Positions 12,534 to 63,660 of a DNA stretch of 64,000 nt are shown in pieces. This DNA comes from Lepidurus packardi. Its lineage: Eukaryota > Arthropoda > Branchiopoda > Notostraca > Triopsidae. The position numbers were made by a program, and so were the translations under genes. Positions within the stretch are counted from its first letter, which is position 1, and each line of letters starts with the position of its first letter. Where the stretch lies: the NCBI GenBank assembly GCA_023053545.1, contig JAKZAN010000046.1:124001-188000 (forward strand), in the 5' to 3' direction. The notes under the pieces are model-generated. The model searched no databases and had not been told where the DNA came from. It saw nothing but the letters and a program-made list of their open reading frames with translations.

Positions 12534-13039
12534 ACTGAATTAATTCATTACGGACTGAATTAATCGATTACGGACTGAATTAATTCCTTACGTACTGAAA
12601 TTATTCCTTACGGACTGAATTAATTCCTTACGGACTGAATTAATTCCTTACGGACTGAATTAATTTCATACGGACTGAATTAATTCATTACGGACTGAAT
12701 TAACTCCTTACGGACTGAATTAATTCCTTACGGTCTGAATTAAATCCTTACGGACTGAATTAATTCCTTACGGACTGAATAAATTCCTTACGGACTGAAT
12801 TAATTCCTTACGGACTGAATTAATACCTTACGGACTGAATTAAATCCTTACGGACTGAATTAATTCCTTACGGACTGAATTAATTCCTTACGGACTGAAT
12901 TAAATCCTTACGGACTGAATTAATTCATTACGGACTTAATTAAATCCTTATAGACTGAATTAATTCCTTATGGACTTAATTAAAATAATTCCTTACGGAC
13001 TGAATACATTCCTTACGGACTTAATTAATTCCTTACGGA

Positions 13040-15563
13040 CTGAATTAATTTCTTACGGACTGAATTAATTCATTACGGACTGAATTAATCGATTACGGAC
13101 TGAATTAATTCCTTACGTACTGAAATTATTCCTTACGGACTGAATTAATTCCTTACGGACTGAATTAATTCCTTACGGACTGAATTAATACCTTCCGGAC
13201 TGAATTAAATCCTTACGGACTGAATTAATTCCTTACGGACTGAATTAATTCCTTACGGACTGAATTAATTCCTTACTGACTGAATTAATTCCTTACGTAC
13301 TGAATTAATCCATTACGGACTGAATTATTTCCTTACGGACTGAATTAATACCTTACGGACTGAATTACATCCTCACGGACAGAATTAATTCCTTACAGAC
13401 TGAATTAACTCTTTACGGACTGAATTAATTCCTTACGGACTGAATTAATTCCTTACGGACTGAATTAATTCCTTACGGACTGAATTAATTCCTTACGGAC
13501 TGAATTAATTCCTTACGGACTGAATTAATACCTTACGGACTGAATTAAATCCTTACGGACTGAATTAATTCCTTACGGACTGAATTAATTCCTTACGGAC
13601 TGAATTAAATCCTTACGGACTGAATTAATTCATTACGGACTTAATTAAATCCTTACAGACTGAATTAATTCCTTATGGACTTAATTAAAATAATTCCTTA
13701 CGGACTGAATTAATTCCTTATGGACTTAATTAAAATAATTCCTTACGGACTGAATTAATTCCTTACGGACTGAATTAATTTCATACGGACTGAATTAATT
13801 CATTACGGACTGAATTAATCGATTACGGACTGAATTAATTCCTTACGTACTGAACTTATTTCTTACGGACTGAATTAATTCCTTACGGACTGAATTAATT
13901 CCTTACGGACTGAATTAATACCTTCCGGACTGAATTAAATCCTTACGGACTGAATTAATTCCTTACGGACTGAATTAATTCCTTACGGACTGAATTAATT
14001 CCTTACTGACTGAATTAATTCATTACGGACTTAATTAAATCCTTACAGACTAAATTAATTCCTTATGGACTAAATTAATTCCGTAAGGAATGAATTAATT
14101 AATTACGGACTGAAATAATTCCTTACGGACTGAATTAATTCCTTACGGACTTAATTAATTCCTTACGGACTTAATTAATTCCTTACGGACTGAATGAATT
14201 CCTTACGGACTTAATTAATCCATTGCGGACTAAATTAATTCCTTACGGACTGAATGAATTCCTTACGGACTGAACGAATTCCTTACGGACTGAATGAATT
14301 CCTTACGGACTGAATTAATTTCATACGGACTGAATTAATTCATTACGGACTGAATTAAACCCTTACGGACTGAATTAATTCCTTACGGACTGAATTAATT
14401 CCTTACGGACTGAATTAATTCCTTACTGACTGAATTAATTCCTTACGTACTGAATTAATCCATTACGGACTGAATTATTTCCTTACGGACTGAATTAATA
14501 CCTTACGGACTGAATTACATCCTCACGGACAGAATTAATTCCTTACGGACTGAATTAACTCCTTACGGACTGAATTAATTCCTTACGGACTGAATTAATT
14601 CCTTACGGACTGAATTAATACCTTACGGACTGAATTAAATCCTTACGGACTGAATTAATTCCTTACGGACTGAATTAATTCCTTACGGACTGAATTAATA
14701 CCTTACGGACTGAATTAATTCCTTACGGACTGAATTAATTCCTTACGGACTGAATTAATACCTTACGGACTGAATTACATCCTCACGGACAGAATTTATT
14801 CCTTACGGACTGAATTAACTCCTTACGGACTGAATTAATTCCTTACGGACTGAATTAATTCCTTACGGACTGAATTAATACCTTACGGATTGAATTAAAT
14901 CCTTACGGACTGAATTAATTCCTTACGGACTGAATTAATTCCTTACGGACTGAATTAATTCCTTACGGACTGAATTAATTCATTACGGACTTAATTAAAT
15001 CCTTACAGACTGAATTAATTCCTTATGGACTTAATTAATTCCGTAAGGAATGAATTAATTAATTACGGACTGAAATAATTCCTTACGGACTGAATTAATT
15101 CCTTACGGACTGAATTAATTCCTTAATTAATTCCTTACGGACTGAGTTAATTTCATACGGACTGAATTAATTCATTACGGACTTAATTAATCGATTACGG
15201 ACTGAATTAATTCCTTACGTACTGAACTTATTCCTTACGGACTGAATTAATTCCTTACGGACTGAATTAATTCCTTACGGACTGAATTAATTCCTTACGG
15301 ACTGAATTAATTCCTTACGGACTGAATTAATTCCTTACGGACTGAATTAATTCCTTACGGACTGAATTAATACCTTACGGACTGAATTAAATCCTTACGG
15401 ACTGAATTAATTCCTTACGGACTGAATTAATTCCTTACGGACTGAATTAAATCCTTACGGACTGAATTAATTCATTACGGACTTAATTAAATCCTTACAG
15501 ACTGGATTAATTCCTTATGGACTTAATTAAAATAATTCCTTACGGACTGAATTAATTCCTTAC
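13040..15563 (+). repeat. 2702-bp-offset duplication, copy 1
   Basis: P (14081, 15041), T (14521, 14781), H (15125) and the rare CAGACTGGATT (near 15502) recur 2702 bp later. Left of 13695 the offset is 2747 because this copy has a 45-bp tandem duplication of an L unit plus one monomer (13695-13744), absent from copy 2. Confidence 0.88.
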
Positions 15564-15786
15564 GGTCTGAATTAATTCCTTACGGACTGAATTAATTTCA
15601 TACGGACTGAATTAATTCCTTACGGACTGAATTAATTCATTACGGACTTAATTAAATCCTTACAGACTGAATTAATTCCTAATGGATTGATTGAATTCCT
15701 TTCTTACTGAATTAATTCCTTACGGACTGAAATAATTCCTTACGGACTGAATTAATTCCTTACGGACTGAATTAATTCCTTACGGA

Positions 15787-18265
15787 CTGAATTAATTTCA
15801 TACGGACTGAATTAATTCATTACGGACTGAATTAATCGATTACGGACTGAATTAATTCCTTACGTACTGAAATTATTCCTTACGGACTGAATTAATTCCT
15901 TACGGACTGAATTAATTCCTTACGGACTGAATTAATACCTTCCGGACTGAATTAAATCCTTACGGACTGAATTAATTCCTTACGGACTGAATTAATTCCT
16001 TACGGACTGAATTAATTCCTTACTGACTGAATTAATTCCTTACGTACTGAATTAATCCATTACGGACTGAATTATTTCCTTACGGACTGAATTAATACCT
16101 TACGGACTGAATTACATCCTCACGGACAGAATTAATTCCTTACAGACTGAATTAACTCTTTACGGACTGAATTAATTCCTTACGGACTGAATTAATTCCT
16201 TACGGACTGAATTAATTCCTTACGGACTGAATTAATTCTTTACGGACTGAATTAATTCCTTACGGACTGAATTAATACCTTACGGACTGAATTAAATCCT
16301 TACGGACTGAATTAATTCCTTACGGACTGAATTAATTCCTTACGGACTGAATTAAATCCTTACGGACTGAATTAATTCATTACGGACTTAATTAAATCCT
16401 TACAGACTGAATTAATTCCTTATGGACTTAATTAAAATAATTCCTTACGGACTGAATTAATTCCTTACGGACTGAATTAATTTCATACGGACTGAATTAA
16501 TTCATTACGGACTGAATTAATCGATTACGGACTGAATTAATTCCTTACGTACTGAACTTATTTCTTACGGACTGAATTAATTCCTTACGGACTGAATTAA
16601 TTCCTTACGGACTGAATTAATACCTTCCGGACTGAATTAAATCCTTACGGACTGAATTAATTCCTTACGGACTGAATTAATTCCTTACGGACTGAATTAA
16701 TTCCTTACTGACTGAATTAATTCATTACGGACTTAATTAAATCCTTACAGACTAAATTAATTCCTTATGGACTAAATTAATTCCGTAAGGAATGAATTAA
16801 TTAATTACGGACTGAAATAATTCCTTACGGACTGAATTAATTCCTTACGGACTTAATTAATTCCTTACGGACTTAATTAATTCCTTACGGACTGAATGAA
16901 TTCCTTACGGACTTAATTAATCCATTGCGGACTGAATTAATTCCTTACGGACTGAATGAATTCCTTACGGACTGAACGAATTCCTTACGGACTGAATGAA
17001 TTCCTTACGGACTGAATTAATTTCATACGGACTGAATTAATTCATTACGGACTGAATTAAACCCTTACGGACTGAATTAATTCCTTACGGACTGAATTAA
17101 TTCCTTACGGACTGAATTAATTCCTTACTGACTGAATTAATTCCTTACGTACTGAATTAATCCATTACGGACTGAATTATTTCCTTACGGACTGAATTAA
17201 TACCTTACGGACTGAATTACATCCTCACGGACAGAATTAATTCCTTACGGACTGAATTAACTCCTTACGGACTGAATTAATTCCTTACGGACTGAATTAA
17301 TTCCTTACGGACTGAATTAATACCTTACGGACTGAATTAAATCCTTACGGACTGAATTAATTCCTTACGGACTGAATTAATTCCTTACGGACTGAATTAA
17401 TACCTTACGGACTGAATTAATTCCTTACGGACTGAATTAATTCCTTACGGACTGAATTAATACCTTACGGACTGAATTACATCCTCACGGACAGAATTTA
17501 TTCCTTACGGACTGAATTAACTCCTTACGGACTGAATTAATTCCTTACGGACTGAATTAATTCCTTACGGACTGAATTAATACCTTACGGATTGAATTAA
17601 ATCCTTACGGACTGAATTAATTCCTTACGGACTGAATTAATTCCTTACGGACTGAATTAATTCCTTACGGACTGAATTAATTCATTACGGACTTAATTAA
17701 ATCCTTACAGACTGAATTAATTCCTTATGGACTTAATTAATTCCGTAAGGAATGAATTAATTAATTACGGACTGAAATAATTCCTTACGGACTGAATTAA
17801 TTCCTTACGGACTGAATTAATTCCTTAATTAATTCCTTACGGACTGAGTTAATTTCATACGGACTGAATTAATTCATTACGGACTTAATTAATCGATTAC
17901 GGACTGAATTAATTCCTTACGTACTGAACTTATTCCTTACGGACTGAATTAATTCCTTACGGACTGAATTAATTCCTTACGGACTGAATTAATTCCTTAC
18001 GGACTGAATTAATTCCTTAGGGACTGAATTAATTCCTTACGGACTGAATTAATTCCTTACGGACTGAATTAATACCTTACGGACTGAATTAAATCCTTAC
18101 GGACTGAATTAATTCCTTACGGACTGAATTAATTCCTTACGGACTGAATTAAATCCTTACGGACTGAATTAATTCATTACGGACTTAATTAAATCCTTAC
18201 AGACTGGATTAATTCCTTATGGACTTAATTAAAATAATTCCTTACGGACTGAATTAATTCCTTAC
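15787..18265 (+). repeat. 2702-bp-offset duplication, copy 2
   Basis: The order P 16783, T 17223 and 17483, P 17743, H 17827, L near 18220 repeats copy 1. Copy 2 has one private substitution, CCTTAGGG at 18015, and diverges after about 18265. The two copies are separated by a short K2-containing segment (15564-15786). Confidence 0.88.
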
Positions 18266-18827
18266 GGACTGAATTAATACCTTACGGACTGAATTAAATC
18301 CTTACGGACTGAATTAATTCCTTACGGACTGAATTAATTCCTTACGGACTGAATTAAATCCTTACGGACTGAATTATTTCATTACGGACTTAGTTAAATC
18401 CTTACAGACTGAATTAATTCCTTATGGACTTAATTAATTCCGTAAGGAATGAATTAATTAATTACGGACTGAAATAATTCCTTACGCACTTAATTAATTC
18501 CTTACGGACTTAATTAATTCCTTACGGACTGAATTAATTCCTTACGGACTGAATTAATTCCTTACGGACTGAATTAATTCCTTAGGGACTGAATTAATTC
18601 CTTACGGACTGAATTAATTCCTTACGGACTGAATTAATACCTTACGGACTGAATTAAATCCTTACGGACTGAATTAATTCCTTACGGACTGAATTAATTC
18701 CTTACGGACTGAATTAAATCCTTACGGACTGAATTAATTCATTACGGACTTAATTAAATCCTTACAGACTGGATTAATTCCTTATGGACTTAATTAAAAT
18801 AATTCCTTACGGACTGAATTAATTCCT
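17955..18827 (+). repeat. Repeated segment with 565-bp offset
   Basis: The private CCTTAGGG substitution (TTAGGG at 18017 and 18582) and CAGACTGGATT (AGACTGG at 18201 and 18766) both recur at 565 bp, equal to 27 monomers plus one 25-bp L. The matching parts are about 17955-18262 and 18520-18827, with a P-containing stretch between them. The copied mutation dates this event after the 2702-bp duplication. Confidence 0.85.
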
Positions 18828-18984
18828 TACGGTCTGAATTAATTCCTTACGGACTGAATTAATTTCATACGGACTGAATTAATTCCTTACGGACTGAATT
18901 AATTCATTACGGACTTAATTAAATCCTTACAGACTGAATTAATTCCTAATGGATTGATTGAATTCCTTTCTTACTGAATTAATT

Positions 18985-19640: not shown

Positions 19641-20490
19641 ATTCCTTACGGACTGAATTAATTCCTTACGGACTGAATTAATTCCTTAATTAATTCCTTA
19701 CGGACTGAGTTAATTTCATACGGACTGAATTAATTCATTACGGACTTAATTAATCGATTACGGACTGAATTAATTCCTTACGTACTGAACTTATTCCTTA
19801 CGGACTGAATTAATTCCTTACGGACTGAATTAATTCCTTACGGACTGAATTAATTCCTTACGGACTGAATTAATTCCTTACGGACTGAATTAATTCCTTA
19901 CGGACTGAATTAATTCCTTACGGACTGAATTAATACCTTACGGACTGAATTAAATCCTTACGGACTGAATTAATTCCTTACGGACTGAATTAATTCCTTA
20001 CGGACTGAATTAAATCCTTACGGACTGAATTATTTCATTACGGACTTAGTTAAATCCTTACAGACTGAATTAATTCCTTATGGACTTAATTAATTCCGTA
20101 AGGAATGAATTAATTAATTACGGACTGAAATAATTCCTTACGCACTTAATTAATTCCTTACGGACTTAATTAATTCCTTACGGACTTAATTAATTCCTTA
20201 CGAACTGAATTAATTCCTTACGGACTGAATTAGTTCCTTACGGACTGAATTAAATCCTTACGGACTGAATTAATTCATTACGGACTTAATTAAATCCTTA
20301 CAGACTGAATTAATTCCTTATGGACTTAATTAAAATAATTCCTTACGGACTGAATTAATTCCTTACGGACTGAATTAATTCCTTACGGACTGAATTAATT
20401 TCATACGGACTGAATTAATTCCTTACGGACTGAATTAATTCATTACGGACTTAATTAAATCCTTACAGACTGAATTAATTCCTTATGGAT

Positions 20491-20530: not shown

Positions 20531-20540
20531 TGAATTAATT

Positions 20541-21556: not shown

Positions 21557-23159
21557 TTAATTACGGACTGAAATAATTCCTTACGGACTGAATTAATTCC
21601 TTACGGACTGAATTAATTCCTTACGGACTGAATTAATTCCTTACGGACTGAATTAATTCCTTACGGACTGAATTAATTCCTTACGGACTGAATTAATTCA
21701 TTACGGACTTAATTAATCCATTACGGACTGAATTAATTCCTTACGTACTGAACTTATTCCTTACGGACTGAATGAATTCCTTACGGACTGAATGAATTCC
21801 TTACGGACTGAATTAATTTCATACGGACTGAATTAATTCATTACGGACTTAATTAATTCCTTACGGACTGAATTAATTCCTTACGGACTGAATCAATACC
21901 TTACGGACTGAATTAAACCCTTACGGACTGAATTAATTCCTTACAGACTGAATTAATTCCTTATGGACTTAATTAAAATAATTCCTTACGGACTGAATTA
22001 ATTCCTTACGGACTGAATTAATTCCTTACGGACTGAATTAATTTCATACGGACTGAATTAATTCATTACGGACTGAATTAATCGATTACGGACTGAATTA
22101 ATTCCTTACGTACTGAACTTATTCCTTACGGACTGAATTAATTCCTTACGGACTGAATTAATTCCTTACGGACTGAATTAATTCCTTACGGACTGAATTA
22201 ATTTCATACGGACTGAATTAATTCATTACGGACTTAATTAATTCCTTACGGACTGAATTAATTCCTTACGGACTGAATCAATACCTTACGGACTGAATTA
22301 AACCCTTACGGACTGAATTAATTCCTTACAGACTGAATTAATTCCTTATGGACTTAATTAAAATAATGCCTTACGGACTGAATTAATTCCTTACGGACTG
22401 AATTAATTCCTTACGGACTGAATTAATGTCATACGGACTGAATTAATTCATTACGGACTGAATTAATCGCTTACGGACTGAATTAATTCCTTACGTACTG
22501 AACTTATTCCTTACGGACTGAATTAATTCCTTACGGACTGAATTAATTCCTTACGGACTGAATTACATCCTCACGGACAGAATTAATTCCTTACGGACTG
22601 AATTAACTCCTTACGGACTGAATTAATTCCTTACGGACTGAATTAATTCCTTACGGACTGAATTAATTCCTTACGGACTGAATAAATTCCTTACGGACTG
22701 AATTAATTCCTTACGGACTGAATTAATACCTTACGGACTGAATTAAATCCTTACGGACTGAATTAATTCCTTACGGACTGAATTAATTCCTTACGGACTG
22801 AATTAAATCCTTACGGACTGAAATAATTCATTACGGACTTAATTAAATCCTTACAGACTGAATTAATTCCTTATGGACTTAATTAAAATAATTCCTTACG
22901 GATTGAACTAATTCCTTACGGACTGAATTAATTCCTTACGGACTGAATTAATTTCATACGGACTGAATTAATTCATTACGGACTGAATTAATCGATTACG
23001 GACTGAATTAATTCCTTACGTACTGAAATTATTCCTTACGGACTGAATTAATTCCTTACGGACTGAATTAATTCCTTACGGACTGAATTAATACCTTCCG
23101 GACTGAATTAAATCCCTACGGACTGAATTAATTCCTTACGGAATGAATTAATTCCTTAC

Positions 23160-25101
23160 GGACTGAATTAATTCCTTACTGACTGAATTAATTCCTTACG
23201 TACTGAATTAATCCATTACGGACTGAATTATTTCCTTACGGACTGAATTAATACCTTACGGACTGAATTACATCCTCACGGACAGAATTAATTCCTTACG
23301 GACTGAATTAACTCCTTACGGACTGAATTAATTCCTTACGGACTGAATTAATTCCTTACGGACTGAATTAACTCCTTACGGACTGAATTAATTCCTTACG
23401 GACTGAATTAATTCCTTACGGACTGAATTAATACCTTACGGACTGAATTAAATCCTTACGGACTGAATTAATTCCTTACGGACTGAATTAATTCCTTACG
23501 GACTGAATTAAATCCTTACGGACTGAATTAATTCATTACGGACTTAATTAAATCCTTACAGACTGAATTAATTCCTTATGGACTTAATTAAAATAATTCC
23601 TTACGGACTGAATTAATTCCTTATGGACTGAATTAATTTCATACGGACTGAATTAATTCATTACGGACTGAATTAATCGATTACGGACTGAATTAATTCC
23701 TTACGTACTGAACTTATTCCTTACGGACTGAATTAATTCCTTACGGACTGAATTAATTCCTTACGGACTGAATTAATACCTTCCGGACTGAATTAAATCC
23801 TTACGGACTGAATTAATTCCTTACGGACTGAATTAATTCCTTACGGACTGAATTAATTCCTTACTGACTGAATTAATTCAATACGGACTTAATTAAATCC
23901 TTACAGACTATATTAATTCCTTATGGACGAAATTAATTCCGTAAGGAATGAATTAATTAATTACGGACTGAAATAATTCCTTACGGACTGAATTAATTCC
24001 TTACGGACTTAATTAATTCCTTACGGACTTAATTAATTCCTTACGGACTGAATGAATTCCTTACGGACTTAATTAATCCATTGCGGACTGAATTAATTCC
24101 TTACGGACTGAATGAATTCCTTACGGACTGAACGAATTCCTTACGGACTGAATGAATTCCTTACGGACTGAATTAATTTCATACGGACTGAATTAATTCA
24201 TTACGGACTGAATTAAACCCTTACGGACTGAATTAATTCCTTACTGACTGAATTAATTCCTTACGTACTGAATTAATCCATTACGGACTGAATTATTTCC
24301 TTACGGACTGAATTAATACCTTACGGACTGAATTACATCCTCACGGACAGAATTAATTCCTTACGGACTGAATTAACTCCTTACGGACTGAATCAATTCC
24401 TTACGGACTGAATTAATTCCTTACGGACTGAATTAATACCTTACGGACTGAATTAAATCCTTACGGACTGAATTAATTCCTTACGGACTGAATTAATTCC
24501 TTACGGACTGAATTAATACCTTACGGACTGAATTACATCCTCACGGACAGAATTTATTCCTTACGGACTGAATTAACTCCTTACGGACTGAATTAATTCC
24601 TTACGGACTGAATTAATTCCTTACGGACTGAATTAATACCTTACGGATTGAATTAAATCCTTACGGACTGAATTAATTCCTTACGGACTGAATTAATTCC
24701 TTACGGACTTAATTAATTCCTTACGGACTGAATTAATTCATTACCGACTTAATTAAATCCTTACAGACTGAATTAATTCCTTATGGACTTAATTAATTCC
24801 GTAAGGAATGAATTAATTAATTACTGACTGAAATAATTCCTTACGGACTGAATTAATTCCTTACGGACTGAAAAAATTCCTTAATTAATTCCTTACGGAC
24901 TGAGTTAATTTCATACGGACTGAATTAATTCATTACGGACTTAATTAATCGATTACGGACTGAATTAATTCCTTACGTACTGAACTTATTCCTTACGGAC
25001 TGAATTAATTCCTTACGGACTGAATTAATTCCTTACGGACTGAATTAATTCCTTACGGACTGAATTAATTCCTTACGGACTGAATTAATTCCTTACGGAC
25101 T
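23160..25101 (+). repeat. 2077-bp-offset duplication, copy 1
   Basis: P (23939, 24799) and H (24883) recur 2077 bp later, as does the odd GAAAAAATTCC monomer just before H (24870). The offset is 2097 at the left edge because of a one-monomer difference. 2077 equals 2080 plus 5 (L) minus 8 (H). Confidence 0.88.
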
Positions 25102-25256: not shown

Positions 25257-27178
25257 AGACTGAATTAATTCCTTACTGACTGAATTAATTCCTTACGTAC
25301 TGAATTAATCCATTACGGACTGAATTATTTCCTTACGGACTGAATTAATACCTTACGGACTGAATTACATCCTCACGGACAGAATTAATTCCTTACGGAC
25401 TGAATTAACTCCTTACGGACTGAATTAATTCCTTACGGACTGAATTAATTCCTTACGGACTGAATTAATTCCTTACGGACTGAATTAATTCCTTACGGAC
25501 TGAATTAATTCCTTACGGACTGAATTAATACCTTACGGACTGAATTAAATCCTTACGGACTGAATTAATTCCTTACGGACTGAATTAATTCCTTACGGAC
25601 TGAATTAAATCCTTACGGACTGAATTAATTCATTACGGACTTAATTAAATCCTTACAGACTGAATTAATTCCTTATGGACTTAATTAAAATAATTCCTTA
25701 CGGACTGAATTAATTTCATACGGACTGAATTAATTCATTACGGACTGAATTAATCGATTACGGACTGAATTAATTCCTTACGTACTGAACTTATTCCTTA
25801 CGGACTGAATTAATTCCTTACGGACTGAATTAATTCCTTACGGACTGAATTAATACCTTCCGGACTGAATTAAATCCTTACGGACTGAATTAATTCCTTA
25901 CGGACTGAATTAATTCCTTACGGACTGAATTAATTCCTTACTGACTGAATTAATTCAATACGGACTTAATTAAATCCTTACAGACTATATTAATTCCTTA
26001 TGGACTAAATTAATTCCGTAAGGAATGAATTAATTAATTACGGACTGAAATAATTCCTTACGGACTGAATTAATTCCTTACGGACTTAATTAATTCCTTA
26101 CGGACTTAATTAATTCCTTACGGACTGAATGAATTCCTTACGGACTTAATTAATCCATTGCGGACTGAATTAATTCCTTACGGACTGAATGAATTCCTTA
26201 CGGACTGAACGAATTCCTTACGGACTGAATGAATTCCTTACGGACTGAATTAATTTCATACGGACTGAATTAATTCATTACGGACTGAATTAAACCCTTA
26301 CGGACTGAATTAATTCCTTACTGACTGAATTAATTCCTTACGTACTGAATTAATCCATTACGGACTGAATTATTTCCTTACGGACTGAATTAATACCTTA
26401 CGGACTGAATTACATCCTCACGGACAGAATTAATTCCTTACGGACTGAATTAACTCCTTACGGACTGAATTAATTCCTTACGGACTGAATTAATTCCTTA
26501 CGGACTGAATTAATACCTTACGGACTGAATTAAATCCTTACGGACTGAATTAATTCCTTACGGACTGAATTAATTCCTTACGGACTGAATTAATACCTTA
26601 CGGACTGAATTACATCCTCACGGACAGAATTTATTCCTTACGGACTGAATTAACTCCTTACGGACTGAATTAATTCCTTACGGACTGAATTAATTCCTTA
26701 CGGACTGAATTAATACCTTACGGATTGAATTAAATCCTTACGGACTGAATTAATTCCTTACGGACTGAATTAATTCCTTACGGACTTAATTAATTCCTTA
26801 CGGACTGAATTAATTCATTACCGACTTAATTAAATCCTTACAGACTGAATTAATTCCTTATGGACTTAATTAATTCCGTAAGGAATGAATTAATTAATTA
26901 CTGACTGAAATAATTCCTTACGGACTGAATTAATTCCTTACGGACTGAAAAAATTCCTTAATTAATTCCTTACGGACTGAGTTAATTTCATACGGACTGA
27001 ATTAATTCATTACGGACTTAATTAATCGATTACGGACTGAATTAATTCCTTACGTACTGAACTTATTCCTTACGGACTGAATTAATTCCTTACGGACTGA
27101 ATTAATTCCTTACGGACTGAATTAATTCCTTACGGACTGAATTAATTCCTTACGGACTGAATTAATTCCTTACGGACT
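25257..27178 (+). repeat. 2077-bp-offset duplication, copy 2
   Basis: P at 26016 and 26876, GAAAAAATTCC at 26947 and H at 26960 mirror copy 1. After 27178 the sequence jumps to a TATTAATTCC-TATGG-P segment (27208), marking a recombination junction that starts copy 3. Confidence 0.88.
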
Positions 27179-27239
27179 ATATTAATTCCTTATGGACTAA
27201 ATTAATTCCGTAAGGAATGAATTAATTAATTACGGACTG

Positions 27240-33776: not shown

Positions 33777-33836
33777 CATTACGGACTTAATTAAATCCTT
33801 ACGGACTGAATTAATTCCTTACGGACTAAATTAATT

Positions 33837-44087: not shown

Positions 44088-44520
44088 ACGGACTGAGTTA
44101 ATTTCATACGGACTGAATTAATTCATTACGGACTTAATTAATCGATTACGGACTGAATTAATTCCTTACGTACTGAACTTATTCCTTACGGACTGAATTA
44201 ATTCCTTACGGACTGAATTAATTCCTTACGGACTGAATTAATTCCTTACGGACTGAATTAATTCCTTACGGACTGAATTAATTCCTTACGGACTGAATTA
44301 ATACCTTACGGACTGAATTAAATCCTTACGGACTGAATTAATTCCTTACGGACTGAATTAATTCCTTACGGACTGAATTAAATCCTTACGGACTGAATTA
44401 ATTCATTACGGACTTAATTAAATCCTTACAGACTGAATTAATTCCTTATGGACTTAATTAAAATATTTCCTTACGGACTGAATTAATTCCTTACGGACTG
44501 AATTAATTCCTTACGGACTG

Positions 44521-50221: not shown

Positions 50222-52393
50222 GGACTGAATTAAATCCTTACGGACTGAATTAATTCATTACGGACTTAATTAAATCCTTACAGACTGAATTAATTCCTTA
50301 TGGACTTAATTAAAATAATTCCTTACGGACTGAATTAATTCCTTACGGACTGAATTAATTCCTTACGGACTGAATTAATTTCATACGGACTGAATTAATT
50401 CATTACGGACTGAATTAATCGATTACGGACTGAATTAATTCCTTACGTACTGAACTTATTCCTTACGGACTGAATTAATTCCTTACGGACTGAATTAATT
50501 CCTTACGGACTGAATTAATACCTTCCGGACTGAATTAAATCCTTACGGACTGAATTAATTCCTTACGGACTAAATTAATTCCTTACGGACTGAATTAATT
50601 CCTTACTGACTGAATTAATTCATTACGGACTTAATTAAATCCTTACAGACTAAATTAATTCCTTATGGACTAAATTAATTCCGTAAGGAATGAATTAATT
50701 AATTACGGACTGAAATAATTCCTTACGGACTGAATTAATTCCTTACGGACTGAATTAATTCTTTAAGATTGATTGAATTCTTTTCTCACTGAATGAATTC
50801 CTTACGGACTGAATGAATTATTTACGGACTTAATTAATCCATTACGGACTGAATTAATTCCTTACGGACTGAATGAATTCCTTACGGACTGAACGAATTC
50901 CTTACGGACTGAATTAATTCCTTACGGACTGAATTAATTTCATACGGACTGAATTAATTCATTACGGACTTAATTAATTCCTTACGGACTGAATTAATTC
51001 CTTACGGACTGAATTAATACCTTACGGACTGAATTAAACCCTTACGGACTGAATTAATTCCTTACGGACTGAATTAATTCCTTACGGACTGAATTAATTC
51101 CTTACTGACTGAATTAATTCCTTACGGACTGAATTAATTCATTACGGACTTAATTAAATCCTTACAGACTGAATTAATTCCTTATGGACTTAATTAATTC
51201 CGTAAGGAATGAATTAATTAATTACGGACTGAAATAATTCCTTACGGACTGAATTAATTCCTTACGGACTGAATTAATTCCTTACGGACTGAATTAATTC
51301 CTTAATTAATTCCTTACGGACTGAATTAATTCCTTAATTAATTCCTTACGGACTGAGTTAATTTCATACGGACTGAATTAATTCATTACGGACTTAATTA
51401 ATCGATTACGGACTGAATTAATTCCTTACGTACTGAACTTATTCCTTACGGACTGAATTAATTCCTTACGGACTGAATTAATTCCTTACGGACTGAATTA
51501 ATTCCTTACGGACTGAATTAATTCCTTACGGACTGAATTAATTCCTTACGGACTGAATTAATTCCTTACGGACTGAATTAATTCCTTACGGACTGAATTA
51601 ATACCTTACGGACTGAATTAAATCCTTACGGACTGAATTAATTCCTTACGGACTGAATTAATTCCTTACGGACTGAATTAAATCCTTACGGACTGAATTA
51701 ATTCATTACGGACTTAATTAAATCCTTACAGACTGAATTAATTCCTTATGGACTTAATTAAAATAATTCCTTACGGACTGAATTAATTCCTTACGGACTG
51801 AATTAATTCCTTACGGACTGAATTAATTTCATACGGACTGAATTAATTCATTACGGACTGAATTAATCGATTACGGACTGAATTAATTCCTTACGTACTG
51901 AACTTATTCCTTACGGACTGAATTAATTCCTTACGGACTGAATTAATTCCTTACGGACTGAATTAATACCTTCCGGACTGAATTAAATCCTTACGGACTG
52001 AATTAATTCCTTACGGACTGAATTAATTCCTTACGGACTGAATTAATTCCTTACTGACTGAATTAATTCATTACGGACTTAATTAAATCCTTACAGACTA
52101 AATTAATTCCTTATGGACTAAATTAATTCCGTAAGGAATGAATTAATTAATTACGGACTGAAATAATTCCTTACGGACTGAATTAATTCCTTACGGACTT
52201 AATTAATTCCTTACGGACTTAATTAATTCCTTACGGACTGAATTAATTCCTTACGGACTGAATTAGTTCCTTACGGACTGAATTAATTCTTTAAGATCGA
52301 TTGAATTCTTTTCTCACTGAATGAATTCCTTACGGACTGAATGAATTCCTTACGGACTTAATTAATCCATTACGGACTGAATTAATTCCTTAC
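50222..52393 (+). repeat. 2132/2172-bp HOR, copy 2
   Basis: P at 50681, 51200 and 52129, K at 50765, GATCGATT-type K at 52293 and double H at 51304 follow the order of copy 1. Copies join near a GAATTAATCCATTACGG monomer. Confidence 0.88.
51304..51347 (+). repeat. Double H, copy 4
   Basis: H units at 51304-51315 and 51336-51347; the P core at 51200 lies 104 bp upstream. It is 2132 bp from copy 3, matching the local HOR offset. Confidence 0.9.
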
Positions 52394-52956
52394 GGACTGA
52401 ATTAAATCCTTACGGACTGAATTAATTCATTACGGACTTAATTAAATCCTTACAGACTGAATTAATTCCTTATGGACTTAATTAAAATAATTCCTTACGG
52501 ACTGAATTAATTCCTTACGGACTGAATTAATTCCTTACGGACTGAATTAATTTCATACGGACTGAATTAATTCATTACGGACTGAATTAATCGATTACGG
52601 ACTGAATTAATTCCTTACGTACTGAACTTATTCCTTACGGACTGAATTAATTCCTTACGGACTGAATTAATTCCTTACGGACTGAATTAATACCTTCCGG
52701 ACTGAATTAAATCCTTACGGACTGAATTAATTCCTTACGGACTAAATTAATTCCTTACGGACTGAATTAATTCCTTACTGACTGAATTAATTCATTACGG
52801 ACTTAATTAAATCCTTACAGACTAAATTAATTCCTTATGGACTAAATTAATTCCGTAAGGAATGAATTAATTAATTACGGACTGAAATAATTCCTTACGG
52901 ACTGAATTAATTCCTTACGGACTGAATTAATTCTTTAAGATTGATTGAATTCTTTT
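52394..52956 (+). repeat. 2132/2172-bp HOR, truncated copy 3
   Basis: L (near 52472), P (52853) and K (52937) lie 2172 bp after those of copy 2. The copy is cut inside its K monomer by the aberrant stretch at 52953-52986. Confidence 0.87.
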
Positions 52957-52986
52957 CGGACTTTTCGGACTTCTTTTCTTCTTTTT
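52953..52986 (+). other. Aberrant pyrimidine-rich junction, only non-monomer sequence
   Basis: After GATTGAATTC of a K monomer the sequence reads TTTTCGGAC twice (52953-52961 and 52962-52970), then the tract TTCTTTTCTTCTTTTT (52971-52986), before monomers resume with GAATTAATTCATTACGG at 52987. Elsewhere this K is followed by TTTTCTCACTGAATG. The resumed sequence corresponds to 51840 in the previous HOR copy (offset 1147 bp, confirmed by P 52129/53276 and K 52293/53440). The HOR register therefore jumps back about 1.1 kb here. It could be a slippage-filled rearrangement breakpoint or an assembly join; the sequence alone cannot decide. Confidence 0.85.
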
Positions 52987-54640
52987 GAATTAATTCATTA
53001 CGGACTGAATTAATCGATTACGGACTGAATTAATTCCTTACGTACTGAACTTATTCCTTACGGACTGAATTAATTCCTTACGGACTGAATTAATTCCTTA
53101 CGGACTGAATTAATACCTTCCGGACTGAATTAAATCCTTACGGACTGAATTAATTCCTTACGGACTGAATTAATTCCTTACGGACTGAATTAATTCCTTA
53201 CTGACTGAATTAATTCATTACGGACTTAATTAAATCCTTACAGACTAAATTAATTCCTTATGGACTAAATTAATTCCGTAAGGAATGAATTAATTAATTA
53301 CGGACTGAAATAATTCCTTACGGACTGAATTAATTCCTTACGGACTTAATTAATTCCTTACGGACTTAATTAATTCCTTACGGACTGAATTAATTCCTTA
53401 CGGACTGAATTAGTTCCTTACGGACTGAATTAATTCTTTAAGATCGATTGAATTCTTTTCTCACTGAATGAATTCCTTACGGACTGAATGAATTCCTTAC
53501 GGACTTAATTAATCCATTACGGACTGAATTAATTCCTTACGGACTGAATGAATTCCTTACGGACTGAACGAATTCCTTACGGACTGAATGAATTCCTTAC
53601 GGACTGAATTAATTTCATACGGACTGAATTAATTCATTACGGACTTAATTAATTCCTTACGGACTGAATTATTTCCTTACGGACTGAATTAATACCTTAC
53701 GGACTGAATTAAACCCTTACGTACTGAATTAATTCCTTACGGACTGAATTAATTCATTACGGACTGAATTAATTCCTTACTGACTGAATTAATTCCTTAC
53801 GTACTGAATTAATCGATTACGGACTGAATTATTTCCTTACGTACTGAAGTTTTTCCTTACGGACTGAATTAATTTATTACGGACTTAATTAAATCCTTAC
53901 ACACTAAATTAATTCCTTATGGACTTAATTAATTCCGTAAGGAATGAATTAATTAATTACGGACTGAAATATTTCCTTACGTACTGAATTAATTCCTTAC
54001 GGACTTAATTAATTCCTTACGGACTTAATTAATTCCTTACGGACTGAATTAATTCCTTACGGATTGAATTAGTTCCTTACGGACTGAATTAATTCTTTAA
54101 GATTGATTTAATTCTTTTCACACTGAATGAATTCCTTACGGACTGAATGAATTCCTTACGGACTGAATTAATTTCATACGGACTGAATTAATTCCTTACG
54201 GACTGAATGAATTCCTTACGGACTGAATGAATTCCTTACGGACTGAATTAATTTCATACGGACTGAATTAATTCATTACGTACTGAATTAATCCATTACG
54301 GACTGAATTATTTCCTTACGTACTGAAGTTATTCCTTACGGACTGAATTAAATCCTTACGGACTGAATTAATTCATTACGGACTTAATTAAATCCTTACA
54401 GACTGAATTAATTCCTTATGGACTTAATTAAAATAATTCCTTACGGACTGAATTAATTCCTTACGGACTGAATTAATTCCTTACGGACTGAATTAATTCC
54501 TTACTGACTGAATTAATTCATTACGGACTTAATTAAATCCTTACAGACTAAATTAATTCCTTATGGACTAAATTAATTCCGTAAGGAATGAATTAATTAA
54601 TTACGGACTGAAATAATTCCTTACGGACTGAATTAATTCC
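52987..54640 (+). repeat. 3475-bp-offset duplication, left copy
   Basis: Starting at the first base after the aberrant junction, P (53276, 53935, 54579) and K (53440, 54099) recur 3475 bp later. The match ends near 54653, where this copy goes to K and the other to CTTAATTAATTCC monomers. Confidence 0.88.
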
Positions 54641-56826
54641 TTACGGACTGAATTAATTCTTTAAGATTGATTGAATTCTTTTCTCACTGAATGAATTCCT
54701 TACGGACTGAATGAATTATTTACGGACTTAATTAATCCATTACGGACTGAATTAATTCCTTACGGACTGAATTAATTCCTTACGGACTGAATTAATTCCT
54801 TACGGACTGAATTAATACCTTACGGACTGAATTAAATCCTTACGGACTGAATTAATTCCTTACGGACTGAATTAATTCCTTACGGACTGAATTAAATCCT
54901 TACGGACTGAATTAATTCATTACGGACTTAATTAAATCCTTACAGACTGAATTAATTCCTTATGGACTTAATTAAAATAATTCCTTACGGACTGAATTAA
55001 TTCCTTACGGACTGAATTAATTCCTTACGGACTGAATTAATTTCATACGGACTGAATTAATTCATTACGGACTGAATTAATCGATTACGGACTGAATTAA
55101 TTCCTTACGTACTGAACTTATTCCTTACGGACTGAATTAATTCCTTACGGACTGAATTAATTCCTTACGGACTGAATTAATACCTTCCGGACTGAATTAA
55201 ATCCTTACGGACTGAATTAATTCCTTACGGACTAAATTAATTCCTTACGGACTGAATTAATTCCTTACTGACTGAATTAATTCATTACGGACTTAATTAA
55301 ATCCTTACAGACTAAATTAATTCCTTATGGACTAAATTAATTCCGTAAGGAATGAATTAATTAATTACGGACTGAAATAATTCCTTACGGACTGAATTAA
55401 TTCCTTACGGACTGAATTAATTCTTTAAGATTGATTGAATTCTTTTCTCACTGAATGAATTCCTTACGGACTGAATGAATTATTTACGGACTTAATTAAT
55501 CCATTACGGACTGAATTAATTCCTTACGGACTGAATGAATTCCTTACGGACTGAACGAATTCCTTACGGACTGAATGAATTCCTTACGGATTGAATTAAT
55601 TTCATACGGACTGAATTAATTCATTACGGACTTAATTAATTCCTTACGGACTGAATTAATTCCTTACGGACTGAATTAATACCTTACGGACTGAATTAAA
55701 CCCTTACGGACTGAATTAATTCCTTACGGACTGAATTAATTCCTTACGGACTGAATTAATTCCTTACTGACTGAATTAATTCCTTACGGACTGAATTAAT
55801 TCATTACGGACTTAATTAAATCCTTACAGACTGAATTAATTCCTTATGGACTTAATTAATTCCGTAAGGAATGAATTAATTAATTACGGACTGAAATAAT
55901 TCCTTACGGACTGAATTAATTCCTTACGGACTGAATTAATTCCTTACGGACTGAATTAATTCCTTAATTAATTCCTTACGGACTGAATTAATTCCTTAAT
56001 TAATTCCTTACGGACTGAGTTAATTTCATACGGACTGAATTAATTCATTACGGACTTAATTAATCGATTACGGACTGAATTAATTCCTTACGTACTGAAC
56101 TTATTCCTTACGGACTGAATTAATTCCTTACGGACTGAATTAATTCCTTACGGACTGAATTAATTCCTTACGGACTGAATTAATTCCTTACGGACTGAAT
56201 TAATTCCTTACGGACTGAATTAATACCTTACGGACTGAATTAAATCCTTACGGACTGAATTAATTCCTTACGGACTGAATTAATTCCTTACGGACTGAAT
56301 TAAATCCTTACGGACTGAATTAATTCATTACGGACTTAATTAAATCCTTACAGACTGAATTAATTCCTTATGGACTTAATTAAAATAATTCCTTACGGAC
56401 TGAATTAATTCCTTACGGACTGAATTAATTCCTTACGGACTGAATTAATTTCATACGGACTGAATTAATTCATTACGGACTGAATTAATCGATTACGGAC
56501 TGAATTAATTCCTTACGTACTGAACTTATTCCTTACGGACTGAATTAATTCCTTACGGACTGAATTAATTCCTTACGGACTGAATTAATACCTTCCGGAC
56601 TGAATTAAATCCTTACGGACTGAATTAATTCCTTACGGACTGAATTAATTCCTTACGGACTGAATTAATTCCTTACTGACTGAATTAATTCATTACGGAC
56701 TTAATTAAATCCTTACAGACTAAATTAATTCCTTATGGACTAAATTAATTCCGTAAGGAATGAATTAATTAATTACGGACTGAAATAATTCCTTACGGAC
56801 TGAATTAATTCCTTACGGACTTAATT
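53707..56826 (+). repeat. 9186-bp-offset duplication, right copy (3.1 kb)
   Basis: The match to 44521-47640 has no net indel over about 3.1 kb. Private changes include AATCGATT near 53811 (AATCCATT in the left copy), GATTTAATTC near 54106 (GATTGAATTC) and CGGATTG near 55587. Confidence 0.9.
55966..56009 (+). repeat. Double H, copy 5
   Basis: H units at 55966-55977 and 55998-56009; the P core at 55862 lies 104 bp upstream. It is 9186 bp from copy 2, as expected for the 9186-bp duplication. Confidence 0.9.
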
Positions 56827-58115
56827 AATTCCTTACGGACTTAATTAATTCCTTACGGACTGAATTAATTCCTTACGGACTGAATTAGTTCCTTACGGAC
56901 TGAATTAATTCTTTAAGATCGATTGAATTCTTTTCTCACTGAATGAATTCCTTACGGACTGAATGAATTCCTTACGGACTTAATTAATCCATTACGGACT
57001 GAATTAATTCCTTACGGACTGAATGAATTCCTTACGGACTGAACGAATTCCTTACGGACTGAATGAATTCCTTACGGACTGAATTAATTTCATACGGACT
57101 GAATTAATTCATTACGGACTTAATTAATTCCTTACGGACTGAATTAATTCCTTACGGACTGAATTAATACCTTACGGACTGAATTAAACCCTTACGTACT
57201 GAATTAATTCCTTACGGACTGAATTAATTCATTACGGACTGAATTAATTCCTTACTGACTGAATTAATTCCTTACGTACTGAATTAATCCATTACGGACT
57301 GAATTATTTCCTTACGTACTGAAGTTTTTCCTTACGGACTGAATTAATTTATTACGGACTTAATTAAATCCTTACACACTAAATTAATTCCTTATGGACT
57401 TAATTAATTCCGTAAGGAATGAATTAATTAATTACGGACTGAAATATTTCCTTACGTACTGAATTAATTCCTTACGGACTTAATTAATTCCTTACGGACT
57501 TAATTAATTCCTTACGGACTGAATTAATTCCTTACGGATTGAATTAGTTCCTTACGGACTGAATTAATTCTTTAAGATTGATTGAATTCTTTTCACACTG
57601 AATGAATTCCTTACGGACTGAATGAATTCCTTACGGACTGAATTAATTTCATACGGACTGAATTAATTCCTTACGGACTGAATGAATTCCTTACGGACTG
57701 AATGAATTCCTTACGGACTGAATTAATTTCATACGGACTGAATTAATTCATTACGTACTGAATTAATCCATTACGGACTGAATTATTTCCTTACGTACTG
57801 AAGTTATTCCTTACGGACTGAATTAAATCCTTACGGACTGAATTAATTCATTACGGACTTAATTAAATCCTTACAGACTGAATTAATTCCTTATGGACTT
57901 AATTAAAATAATTCCTTACGGACTGAATTAATTCCTTACGGACTGAATTAATTCCTTACGGACTGAATTAATTCCTTACTGACTGAATTAATTCATTACG
58001 GACTTAATTAAATCCTTACAGACTAAATTAATTCCTTATGGACTAAATTAATTCCGTAAGGAATGAATTAATTAATTACGGACTGAAATAATTCCTTACG
58101 GACTGAATTAATTCC
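56462..58115 (+). repeat. 3475-bp-offset duplication, right copy
   Basis: P at 56751, 57410 and 58054 and K at 56915 and 57574 match the left copy. The equivalent of the left copy's first base, 56462, is embedded in normal array here, so the intact arrangement exists without the pyrimidine tract. Confidence 0.88.
56640..57942 (+). repeat. 1303/1283-bp tandem duplication, copy 1
   Basis: P (56751 to 58054) and GATCGATT-type K (56915 to 58218) are 1303 bp apart. P (57410 to 58693), K (57574 to 58857) and L (near 57894 to 59176) are 1283 bp apart. The 20-bp step is one GAATGAATTCC monomer missing from copy 2 just after K. Confidence 0.87.
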
Positions 58116-59223
58116 TTACGGACTTAATTAATTCCTTACGGACTTAATTAATTCCTTACGGACTGAATTAATTCCTTACGGACTGAATTAGTTCCTTACG
58201 GACTGAATTAATTCTTTAAGATCGATTGAATTCTTTTCTCACTGAATGAATTCCTTACGGACTTAATTAATCCATTACGGACTGAATTAATTCCTTACGG
58301 ACTGAATGAATTCCTTACGGACTGAACGAATTCCTTACGGACTGAATGAATTCCTTACGGACTGAATTAATTTCATACGGACTGAATTAATTCATTACGG
58401 ACTTAATTAATTCCTTACGGACTGAATTAATTCCTTACGGACTGAATTAATACCTTACGGACTGAATTAAACCCTTACGTACTGAATTAATTCCTTACGG
58501 ACTGAATTAATTCATTACGGACTGAATTAATTCCTTACTGACTGAATTAATTCCTTACGTACTGAATTAATCCATTACGGACTGAATTATTTCCTTACGT
58601 ACTGAAGTTTTTCCTTACGGACTGAATTAATTTATTACGGACTTAATTAAATCCTTACACACTAAATTAATTCCTTATGGACTTAATTAATTCCGTAAGG
58701 AATGAATTAATTAATTACGGACTGAAATATTTCCTTACGTACTGAATTAATTCCTTACGGACTTAATTAATTCCTTACGGACTTAATTAATTCCTTACGG
58801 ACTGAATTAATTCCTTACGGATTGAATTAGTTCCTTACGGACTGAATTAATTCTTTAAGATTGATTGAATTCTTTTCACACTGAATGAATTCCTTACGGA
58901 CTGAATGAATTCCTTACGGACTGAATTAATTTCATACGGACTGAATTAATTCCTTACGGACTGAATGAATTCCTTACGGACTGAATGAATTCCTTACGGA
59001 CTGAATTAATTTCATACGGACTGAATTAATTCATTACGTACTGAATTAATCCATTACGGACTGAATTATTTCCTTACGTACTGAAGTTATTCCTTACGGA
59101 CTGAATTAAATCCTTACGGACTGAATTAATTCATTACGGACTTAATTAAATCCTTACAGACTGAATTAATTCCTTATGGACTTAATTAAAATAATTCCTT
59201 ACGGACTGAATTAATTCCTTACG
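57943..59223 (+). repeat. 1303/1283-bp tandem duplication, copy 2
   Basis: It abuts copy 1 in consensus monomers near 57943 and ends where the B-type island begins. The CACACTAAATT variant near 58657 is shared with 44711, 53901 and 57371. Confidence 0.87.
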
Positions 59224-60770
59224 GACTGAATTAATTCTTTACGTACTGAATTAATTCCTTACGGACGGAATAAATTCCTTACGGACTGAATTAATACCTT
59301 ACGGACTGAATTACATCCTCACGGACAGAATTAATTCCTTACGGACTGAATTAACTCCTTACGGACTGAATTAATTCCTTACGGACTGAATTAATTCCTT
59401 ACGGACTGAATTAATACCTTACGGACTGAATTAAATCCTTACGGACTGAATTAATTCCTTACGGACTGAATTAATTCCTTACGGACTGAATTAATACCTT
59501 ACGGACTGAATTACATCCTCACGGACAGAATTAATTCCTTACGGACTGAATTAACTCCTTACGGACTGAATTAATTCCTTACGGACTGAATTAATTCCTT
59601 ACGGACTGAATTAATACCTTACGGATTGAATTAAATCCTTACGGAATGAATTAATTCCTTACGGACTGAATTAATTCCTTACGGACTGAATTAATTCCTT
59701 ACGGACTGAATTAATTCATTACGGACTTAATTAAATCCTTAAAGACTGAATTAATTCCTTATGGACTTAATTAATTCCGTAAGGAATGAATTAATTAATT
59801 ACGGACTGAAATAATTCCTTACGGACTGAATTAATTCCTTACGGACTGAATTAATTCCTTAATTAATTCATTACGGACTTAATTAATCGATTACGGACTG
59901 AATTAATTCCTTACGTACTGAACTTATTCCTTACGGACTGAATTAATTCCTTACGGACTGAATTAATTCCTTATGGACTTAACTAAAATAATTCCTTACG
60001 AACTGAATTAATTCCTTACGGACTGAATTAATTCCTTACGTACTGAATTAATTCCTTACGGACGGAATAAATTCCTTACGGACTGAATTAATACCTTACG
60101 GACTGAATTACATCCTCACGGACAGAATTAATTCCTTACGGACTGAATTAACTCCTTACGGACTGGATTAATTCCTTACGGACTGAATTAATTCCTTATG
60201 GACTGAATTAATACCTTACGGACTGAATTAAATCCTTACGGACTGAATTAATTCCTTACGGACTGAATTAATTCCTTACGGACTGAATTAATACCTTACG
60301 GACTGAATTACATCCTCACGGACAGAATTAATTCCTTACGGACTGAATTAACTCCTTACGGACTGAATTAATTCCTTACGGACTGAATTAATTCCTTACG
60401 GACTGAATTATTACCTTACGGATTGAATTAAATCCTTACGGAATGAATTAATTCCTTACGGACTGAATTAATTCCTTACGGACTGAATTAATTCCTTACG
60501 GACTGAATTAATTCATTACGGACTTAATTAAATCCTTAAAGACTGAATTAATTCCTTATGGACTTAATTAATTCCGTAAGGAATGAATTAATTAATTACG
60601 GACTGAAATAATTCCTTACGGACTGAATTAATTCCTTACGGACTGAATTAATTCCTTAATTAATTCCTTACGGACTGAGTTAATTTCATACGGACTGAAT
60701 TAATTCATTACGGACTTAATTAATCGATTACGGACTGAATTAATTCCTTACGTACTGAACTTATTCCTTA
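59177..60770 (+). repeat. 797-bp-offset duplication within the island
   Basis: GGACGGAATAAATTCC (59264, 60061), P (59777, 60574) and H (59861, 60658) are 797 bp apart. 797 equals 800 plus 5 (L) minus 8 (H). AAAGACTG, replacing CAGACTG just before TATGG, is private to both copies (near 59740 and 60538). Confidence 0.86.
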
Positions 60771-61070
60771 CGGACTGAATTAATTCCTTACGGACTGAAT
60801 TAATTCCTTACGGACTGAATTAATTCCTTACGGACTGAATTAATTCCTTACGGACTGAATTAATTCCTTACGGACTGAATTAATTCCTTACGGACTGAAT
60901 TAATACCTTACGGACTGAATTAAATCCTTACGGACTGAATTAATTCCTTACGGACTGAATTAATTCCTTACGGACTGAATTAAATCCTTACGGACTGAAT
61001 TAATTCATTACGGACTTAATTAAATCCTTACAGACTGAATTAATTCCTTATGGACTTAATTAAAATAATT
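59221..61070 (+). repeat. B-type island inside zone C
   Basis: T monomers (CCTCACGGACAG), otherwise confined to about 13.3-40.6 kb, reappear only here (near 59318, 59518, 60114, 60314). H is single (59861, 60658) rather than double as elsewhere in zone C. The rare variant GGACGGAA at 59264 and 60061 is otherwise seen at 38666 in zone B2, with matching flanks. The island is itself duplicated with a 797-bp offset. It reads as a segment of zone B2 placed into zone C by unequal exchange, conversion or insertion; direction is inferred. Confidence 0.7.
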
Positions 61071-61140
61071 CCTTACGGACTGAATTAATTCCTTACGGAC
61101 TGAATTAATTCCTTACGGACTGAATTAATTTCTTACGGAC

Positions 61141-62130
61141 TGAAATAATACCTTCCGGACTGAATTAAATCCTTACGGACTGAATTAATTCCTTACGGAC
61201 TGAATTAATTCCTTACGGACTGAATTAATTCCTTACTGACTGAATTAATTCATTACGGACTTAATTAAATCCTTACAGACTAAATTAATTCCTTATGGAC
61301 TAAATTAATTCCGTAAGGAATGAATTAATTAATTACGGACTGAAATAATTCCTTACGGACTGAATTAATTCCTTACGGACTTAATTAATTCCTTACGGAC
61401 TTAATTAATTCCTTACGGACTGAATTAATTCCTTACGGACTAAATTAGTTCCTTACGGATTGAATTAATTCTTTAAGATTGATTGAATTCTTTTCTCACT
61501 GAATGAATTCCTTACGGACTGAATGAATTCCTTACGGACTTAATTAATCCATTGCGGACTGAATTAATTCCTTACGGACTGAATGAATTCCTTACGGACT
61601 GAACGAATTCCTTACGGACTGAATTAATTCCTTACGGACTGAAATAATACCTTCCGGACTGAATTAAATCCTTACGGACTGAATTAATTCCTTACGGACT
61701 GAATTAATTCCTTACGGACTGAATTAATTCCTTACTGACTGAATTAATTCATTACGGACTTAATTAAATCCTTACAGACTAAATTAATTCCTTATGGACT
61801 AAATTAATTCCGTAAGGAATGAATTAATTAATTACGGACTGAAATAATTCCTTACGGACTGAATTAATTCCTTACGGACTTAATTAATTCCTTACGGACT
61901 TAATTAATTCCTTACGGACTGAATTAATTCCTTACGGACTAAATTAGTTCCTTACGGACTGAATTAATTCTTTAAGATTGATTGAATTCTTTTCTCACTG
62001 AATGAATTCCTTACGGACTGAATGAATTCCTTACGGACTTAATTAATCCATTGCGGACTGAATTAATTCCTTACGGACTGAATGAATTCCTTACGGACTG
62101 AACGAATTCCTTACGGACTGAATGAATTCT
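61141..62130 (+). repeat. 499-bp tandem duplication
   Basis: The otherwise unseen TGAAATAATACC (61141, 61640), P (61311, 61810) and K (61475, 61974) are 499 bp apart, equal to 25 monomers minus the one base lost in K. Copy 1 has CGGATTGAATT before K (near 61457); copy 2 has CGGACTGAATT. Confidence 0.88.
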
Positions 62131-63660
62131 TTACGGACTGAATTAATTTCATACGGACTGAATTAATTCATTACGGACTTAATTAATTCCTTACGGACTG
62201 AATTGATTCCTTACGGACTGAATTAATACCTTACGGACTGAATTAAACCCTTACGGACTGAATTAATTCCTTACGGACTGAATTAATTCCTTACGGACTG
62301 AATTAATTCCTTACTGACTGAATTAATTCCTTACGTACTGAATTAATCCATTACGGACTGAAGTTTTTCCTTACGGAATTTATTAATTCATTACGGACTT
62401 AATTAAATCCTTACAGACTGACTTAATTCCTTATGGACTTAATTAAAATAATTCCTTACGGACTGAATTAATTCCTTACGGACTGAATTAATTCCTTACG
62501 GACTGAATTAATTCCTTACGGACTGAATTAATTCTTTAAGATTGATTGAATTCTTTTCTCACTGAATGAATTGCTTACGGACTGAATGAATTCCTTACGG
62601 ACTTAATTAATCCATTGCGGAATGAATTAATTCCTTACGGACTGAATTAATTCCTTACGGACTGAATTAATACGTTACGGACTGAATTAAACCCTTACGT
62701 ACTGAAGTTTTTCATTACGGACTGAATTTATTCATTACGGACTTAATTAAATCCTTACAGACTAAATTAATTCCTTATGGACTTAATTAATTCCGTAAGG
62801 AATGAATTAATTAATTACGGACTGAAATATTTCCTTACGTACTGAATTAATTCCTTACTGACTTAATTAATTCCTTACGGACTTAATTAATTCCTTACGG
62901 ACTGAATTAATACCTTACAGATTGAATTAAATCCTTACGGACTGAATTAATTCCTTACGGACTGAATTAATTCCTTACGGACTGAATTAATTCCTTACGG
63001 ACTGAATTAATTCATTACGGACTTAATTAAATCCTTACAGACTGAATTAATTCCTTATGGACTTAATTAAAATAATTCCTTACGGACTGAATTAATTCCT
63101 TACGGACTGAATTAATTCCTTACGGACTGAATTAATTTCATACGGACTGAATTAATTCATTACGGACTGAATTAATCGATTACGGACTGAATTAATTCCT
63201 TACGTACTGAACTTATTCCTTACGGACTGAATTAATTCCTTACGGACTGAATTAATTCCTTACGGACTGAATTAATACCTTCCGGACTGAATTAAATCCT
63301 TACGGACTGAATTAATTCCTTACGGACTGAATTAATTCCTTACGGACTGAATTAATTCCTTACTGACTGAATTAATTCATTACGGACTTAATTAAATCCT
63401 TACAGACTAAATTAATTCCTTATGGACTAAATTAATTCCGTAAGGAATGAATTAATTAATTACGGACTGAAATAATTCCTTACGGACTGAATTAATTCCT
63501 TACGGACTTAATTAATTCCTTACGGACTTAATTAATTCCTTACGGACTGAATTAATTCCTTACGGACTGAATTAGTTCCTTACGGACTGAATTAATTCTT
63601 TAAGATTGATTGAATTCTTTTCTCACTGAATGAATTCCTTACGGACTGAATGAATTCCTT

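Follow-up and report, generated by a model that had tools for sequence, protein, structure and literature searches.

Alpha satellite is the best-described higher-order-repeat array. One study gives hybrid monomers in heavily deleted alpha satellite as one possible explanation there (PMC4496801), and another account describes template switching between short inverted repeats as a source of clustered changes of the kind found here (PMC8604942). The DNA analysed in this work is a 64,000-nucleotide stretch of Lepidurus packardi (contig JAKZAN010000046.1, positions 124,001-188,000), referred to below as the window, which is filled by an array of a 20-bp monomer. Like alpha satellite, the array consists of tandem monomers with marked variants, shows block duplication, and contains odd-length monomers made by deletion, but its monomer is 20 bp rather than about 171 bp long and its modules form an irregular mosaic. 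One of the odd-length monomers, termed L, is 25 bp in length. It is well supported that L is the 20-bp variant monomer P with 35 bp deleted, as the initial annotation of this DNA had proposed. We consider it highly probable that L derives from one class of P locus, named q-b-P-a below, by one 35-bp deletion, and that it was then multiplied together with the module that hosts it.

Monomers were cut by wrap-around alignment of the window against the consensus TTCCTTACGGACTGAATTAA, giving 3249 pieces, 3125 of which are 20 bp long, and each monomer was written as its differences from that consensus ('.' denoting the consensus itself). The codes used are c (2A), G (1A), T (4A+14T), q (1A+9A), V (14T), D (17A), b (8T+14T), d (8T+14A), P (5G+8A+12A), a (3A+4A+17A), 5 (1A+9A+14A), w (2A+7C), m (3T+5A), Y (4A), S (2C+3G+4A), R (10T+17C+19T), z (2A+12T), o (16G), i (a 12-bp piece, TTCCTTAATTAA) and L (b, then AATAA).

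L thus consists of monomer b followed by the 5 bp AATAA. The window contains 44 L loci, where about 44 had been estimated; 43 of them carry AATAA and one carries AATAT, at 44462. Whether the breakpoints were identical or varied had been posed as a check, and the breakpoint was found to be identical at all 44 loci. Since the junction is the same throughout, repeated independent deletion was rejected, and a single origin of L is likely. The b of L is exact at 43 of the 44 loci, the remaining one having an extra 17C. The monomer preceding this b carries 9A without 14A in 42 cases and neither mark in the other two, and, by our reading of the monomer list, the exact motif TACAGAC lies upstream of 41 L loci. 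The claim that L keeps the upstream flank of a b-P pair is borne out by these counts.

The 60 bp of b, P and a together exceed the 25 bp of L by 35 bp, so the proposed arithmetic, in which 35 bp lost from a 60-bp three-monomer stretch leaves 25 bp, holds. A join search was then based on all splits of the 25-mer with 10 bp on each side, allowing deletions of up to 400 bp and duplications of up to 100 bp. The exact L junction was recurrent only by a deletion of 35 bp, which was found from 23 starts, all 23 with P next; 19 of the starts follow an exact q, two a one-base variant of q, and two a 21-bp monomer. Join distances of 335, 373 and 393 bp were given by one start each. The mask used in the search was the exact L core, and two variant L loci (22332 and 44432) passed it and gave the remaining distances, which are multiples of 20. 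In a representative of the q-b-P-a class on the forward strand at 14999-15078 (q 14999-15018, b 15019-15038, P 15039-15058, a 15059-15078), the 35 bp lost between P and L correspond to positions 15039-15073, which span P and run 15 bp into a, and this segment can be slid by 1 bp. The exact left flank TATGGACTTAATTAA occurs 85 times in the window: the junction seen in L follows at 41 copies, the tail is 35 bp away at 34, and no such tail is found within 279 bp of the other 10. These last are six P loci with the tail AAATATTTCC, two L loci with an altered tail, and two places where b is followed by V.

Monomer b is closely tied to both P and L, as it is followed by P in 45, by L in 44 and by V in two of its 91 occurrences, or by P or L in 89 of 91. 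This association bears on a different account of L, according to which L is b with a 5-bp terminal tandem duplication (AATTA or ATTAA) and a later T-to-A change, P never having been present. The best 5-bp duplications of b and an ordinary monomer do come within one base of L, and another apparent tandem duplication, the 12-bp TTCCTTAATTAA with 28 copies, is present in the array. However, two events are needed, and the second must recreate by chance the 17A mark of a, which is found in 98 monomers of the window, 74 of them directly after P. Outside L, b precedes P in 45 of 47 cases, a 5-bp piece is otherwise seen only where the first base of the window cuts a monomer, and no tandem duplication within the 100 bp allowed by the join search yielded the exact L junction. 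Such a duplication is, in our judgement, a decidedly improbable source of L.

The tail AATAATTCC occurs 120 times, with 68 copies in the monomer directly after P, 42 in L, and 10 elsewhere, all of the last in monomer TTCCTTACGGACTGAAATAA (D). The initial annotation stated that outside L this tail is found directly after P, which is correct for 68 of 78 occurrences and fails at the 10 D sites. These sites allow another route without P, namely an illegitimate exchange of b with a 17A monomer of the D type, by a 15-bp or inter-locus deletion. Two of them resemble the surroundings of L: the D at 15716 leads into... m Y S, the module found downstream of L, and the D at 41330, situated in the downstream flank of the L at 41285-41309, is followed by. 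m Y S R. The remaining eight carry other downstream flanks, which suggests later recombination at 15716 and, at 41330, a point change in the flank of L. There are also 10 tail sites of the D kind as opposed to 68 after P, and b never lies directly before D, leaving this exchange very improbable.

The deletion from P can be placed more closely using the neighbours of P. The window contains 80 P monomers, 19 of them within positions 1-12963, and the monomer before P is b in 45 cases, d in 34 and another monomer in one. The 45 b-P pairs are themselves preceded by q in 28 cases, by 5 in 15 and by the 21-bp monomer in two. Since 14A is absent from both monomers before L at all 44 loci, an origin from 5-b-P or 5-d-P loci was rejected, and the parent of L is narrowed to the q-b-P-a class, with 28 of the 80 P loci. 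At a locus of this class, a single break-and-join at 1 bp of shared sequence would have taken out P entirely, together with 15 bp at the start of a, and b would have ended up fused to the AATAA tail of a. The product would have been located in, or carried by in-register recombination into, a module whose typical form is c G.. G T q b L... m Y S R. It would then have multiplied with this module through the duplication and shuffling of blocks of hundreds to thousands of bp.

A deletion of the end-joining type is favoured for this event, and it is possible that a hairpin helped. In the initial annotation L was taken to be a hairpin-excision product, a sub-case of the deletion reading in which P and a fold and are cut out nearly flush. 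A single hairpin of -5.0 kcal/mol (DNA parameters) forms from the lost 35 bp, leaving 1 and 4 bases unpaired at its ends, and equally strong and flush hairpins are found at 2.0% of all 35-bp window positions, P loci included. On the other hand, 10.2% of all 35-bp window positions fold as well or better, and among 126 local windows the lost stretch takes 40th place. It is b with P that forms the strongest local hairpin (-8.1 kcal/mol), and one arm of it, b, is kept in L. The ends of the lost stretch share 1 bp, so that the junction slides by 1 bp and no longer direct repeat marks the endpoints; because of this, slippage between direct repeats at the base of a hairpin is not indicated. As a single event, the deletion also offers no statistics. 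Hairpin excision is therefore unproven, and we regard it as unlikely.

Flanks of L were compared without gaps over 160 bp, and the nearest place other than an L locus was sought. For the 160 bp ending in b, this place lies before P at 40 of the 44 L loci (36 of q type and four of 5-type or other); for the L with its tail at 16436, the nearest upstream flanks are those of seven P loci, with two differences. L loci typically run c G.. G T q b L... m Y S R... w G and P loci of the q class z G... T q b P a.. i o m T S R, and the two align monomer for monomer once i is left out. The mode of the b-to-m distance is 85 bp for L (21 of 44 loci) and 132 bp for P loci of the q class (10 of 28), and the 47 bp between them equal 35 bp plus the 12-bp i. 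Given this alignment and these distances, L and P loci can be read as paralogous on both sides, and we read the.. i o m T S R side of q-class P as a paralogue of the m Y S R module with the 12-bp duplication i and a few substitutions.

Several results weigh against the derivation of L from q-b-P-a. Over the 160 bp downstream, the nearest place is an ordinary locus for all 44 L loci and a P locus for none, the closest downstream relatives of L being m Y S R modules, and the earlier view of the downstream flank as P-derived is not supported by this comparison. The upstream flank is nearer to ordinary places at four L loci, with AATAA at 13734, 21977, 22362 and 59987. Grouping of L flanks with ordinary monomers, which the initial annotation had named as evidence against its proposal, is thus found in part, upstream at four of 44 loci; the four are by our reading later copies or recombinants, with 13734 a tandem copy and 21977, 22362 and 59987 recombinants. 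No m is present within the next eight pieces for 14 of 44 L and 12 of 28 q-class P loci. None of the exact strings c G.. G T q b P, G T q b P a or P a... m occurs in the window. Lastly, over 160 bp upstream L loci differ pairwise by a mean of 0.063 (44 loci) and q-class P loci by a mean of 0.038 (28 loci), the median being 0.0375 in both; over 40 bp upstream the means are 0.013 in L and 0.018 in q-class P. Tried as a clock, diversity does not separate L from q-class P, and as L shows no reduction over 160 bp, it gives no sign that L is the younger.

Of the 23 exact copies of c G.. G T q b, 22 are joined to AATAA and none to P. L thus stands on a separate haplotype, as expected of one origin, and the presumed direct ancestor of L is missing from the window. 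The places closest to this ancestor by upstream string are 18438 and 20094, with two differences each.

A single origin followed by block duplication fits the distribution of L best. For 43 of the 44 L loci, gapless similarity to the best partner extends over 418 bp or more, with a maximum of 3198 bp (for example, 45246 with 54432); the exception is the L with AATAA at 62447, which shares 179 bp with its best partner. The L loci with AATAA at 29263, 30348 and 31433 are equally spaced at 1085 bp. These long shared blocks and equal spacings suggest that L spread with its blocks, in line with the earlier proposal that L, once formed, had spread. By the monomer list, the 44 loci, all on the forward strand, are located, in order, at 12964-12988, 13669-13693, 13714-13738 (45 bp past the preceding L and probably a tandem copy of it), 15511-15535, 16416-16440, 18213-18237, 18778-18802, 20314-20338, 21957-21981 and 22342-22366 (both with the upstream flank closer to ordinary places), 22867-22891, 23572-23596, 25669-25693, 28758-28782, 29243-29267, 30328-30352, 31413-31437, 33470-33494, 35867-35891, 37371-37395, 38207-38231, 38572-38596, 39528-39552, 41285-41309, 41990-42014, 43034-43058, 44442-44466 (the locus with AATAT), 45226-45250, 45770-45794, 47178-47202, 48162-48186, 49570-49594, 50294-50318, 51742-51766, 52466-52490, 54412-54436, 54956-54980, 56364-56388, 57887-57911, 59170-59194, 59967-59991 (with 17C in b and, by flank comparison, an upstream flank closer to ordinary places), 61044-61068, 62427-62451 and 63051-63075 (with an upstream flank of the P type, G... 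T q b).

No L is found within positions 1-12963. The absence of L from zone A had been observed at first, and the direction from P to L had been deduced from it. That deduction is weak, since zone A contains the host module of L twice without L, and the absence of L from zone A therefore does not date it. The two copies, c G'.. G.. m Y S R without T-q-b-L, are identical and lie on the forward strand at 8930-9149 and 10787-11006, with their S monomers at 9110 and 10967; they may show the module before L arose, or after L was lost in register. A better argument for direction is the 20-bp register of P. P, b and a all keep this register and are each two to three substitutions away from an ordinary monomer, while L is out of register. 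A change from P to L takes one deletion and a change from L to P needs a register-restoring 35-bp insertion, which argues that P came first.

Some other places in zone A have a bearing on the history of P. At 8770, T is directly followed by i o m, and at 10428 and 12285 b is directly followed by V (14T), for which 21158 may be compared. All three look like in-register losses of P, and the b-V arrangement at 10428 and 12285 looks like a P-less derivative formed by the in-register loss of four monomers.

The three changes that define P amount to one inverted 12-bp copy of an ordinary monomer. The P core TCCGTAAGGAAT is found 80 times and reads as ATTCCTTACGGA (1422 occurrences) on the opposite strand, and an exact reverse complement of the 12-bp core starts 39 bp after the start of P at the four P loci checked, a clustered change with a nearby inverted source. 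Judged by its sequence, P may have been made by a short template switch between inverted repeats. The likeness to the events treated in PMC8604942 is that the clustered substitutions equal an inverted nearby copy, and it concerns the origin of P, not that of L; the difference is that the P event lies inside a satellite array and is reconstructed without an outgroup. One P of the 80, at 33835, has neither b or d before it nor an a-like monomer after it, and is situated 80 bp upstream of a normal d-P-a. The marks beside P (8T in b and d, 3A and 4A in a; for example, in 15019-15078) fall in arms able to pair with the inverted core, and on the basis of the fold we read them as weakening this pairing. 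A more elaborate history, in which a template switch made P, structure-driven excision removed it, and the resulting scar L was favoured in amplification, seems to us very improbable. If it were true, satellite palindromes would be both created and removed by replication errors, and their scars would be new higher-order markers.

The array as a whole is probably a eukaryotic satellite. Tandem Repeats Finder (TRF) reported monomers of period 20 head to tail over 16-64000, and with the wrap-around alignment the array covers the entire window (1-64000, forward strand), as a long array of a single monomer. Multi-monomer modules recur, and L-centred blocks of up to 3198 bp are shared, which gives the array a higher-order structure of repeated blocks. 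No closed open reading frame of at least 60 amino acids was found in the six frames of the window, as would be expected of non-coding DNA, and no Rfam family reached its gathering score. A 33-base exact pattern of the array had no match in viral_contigs or genome_contigs, and a 200-base stretch had no match in phages with the BLAST low-complexity filter on, a search that did not cover plasmids, ecoli_genomes and metagenome_contigs. Four pieces of the monomer array of 18-20 letters, two per strand, were present in no paper of the literature searched.

Two further irregularities were observed in the array. The 44 bp at 52950-52993 are not divisible into 20-bp monomers, adjoin an h monomer of 19 bp, and are unique in the monomer list; this stretch looks like a small scrambled rearrangement. 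The 12-bp piece i (for example, at 15119-15130) occurs twice in some modules (i. i), and given the TRF rows of period 12 it reads as a tandem duplication of AATTAATTCCTT.

The history of L is ordinary but clean satellite evolution, with no special cutting or new mechanism shown. It provides a clean case in which one out-of-register deletion gave rise to a marker that was copied to 44 places in a short-monomer satellite. With P preceding L, the pair would also serve as a polarised character for ordering the modules of the array.

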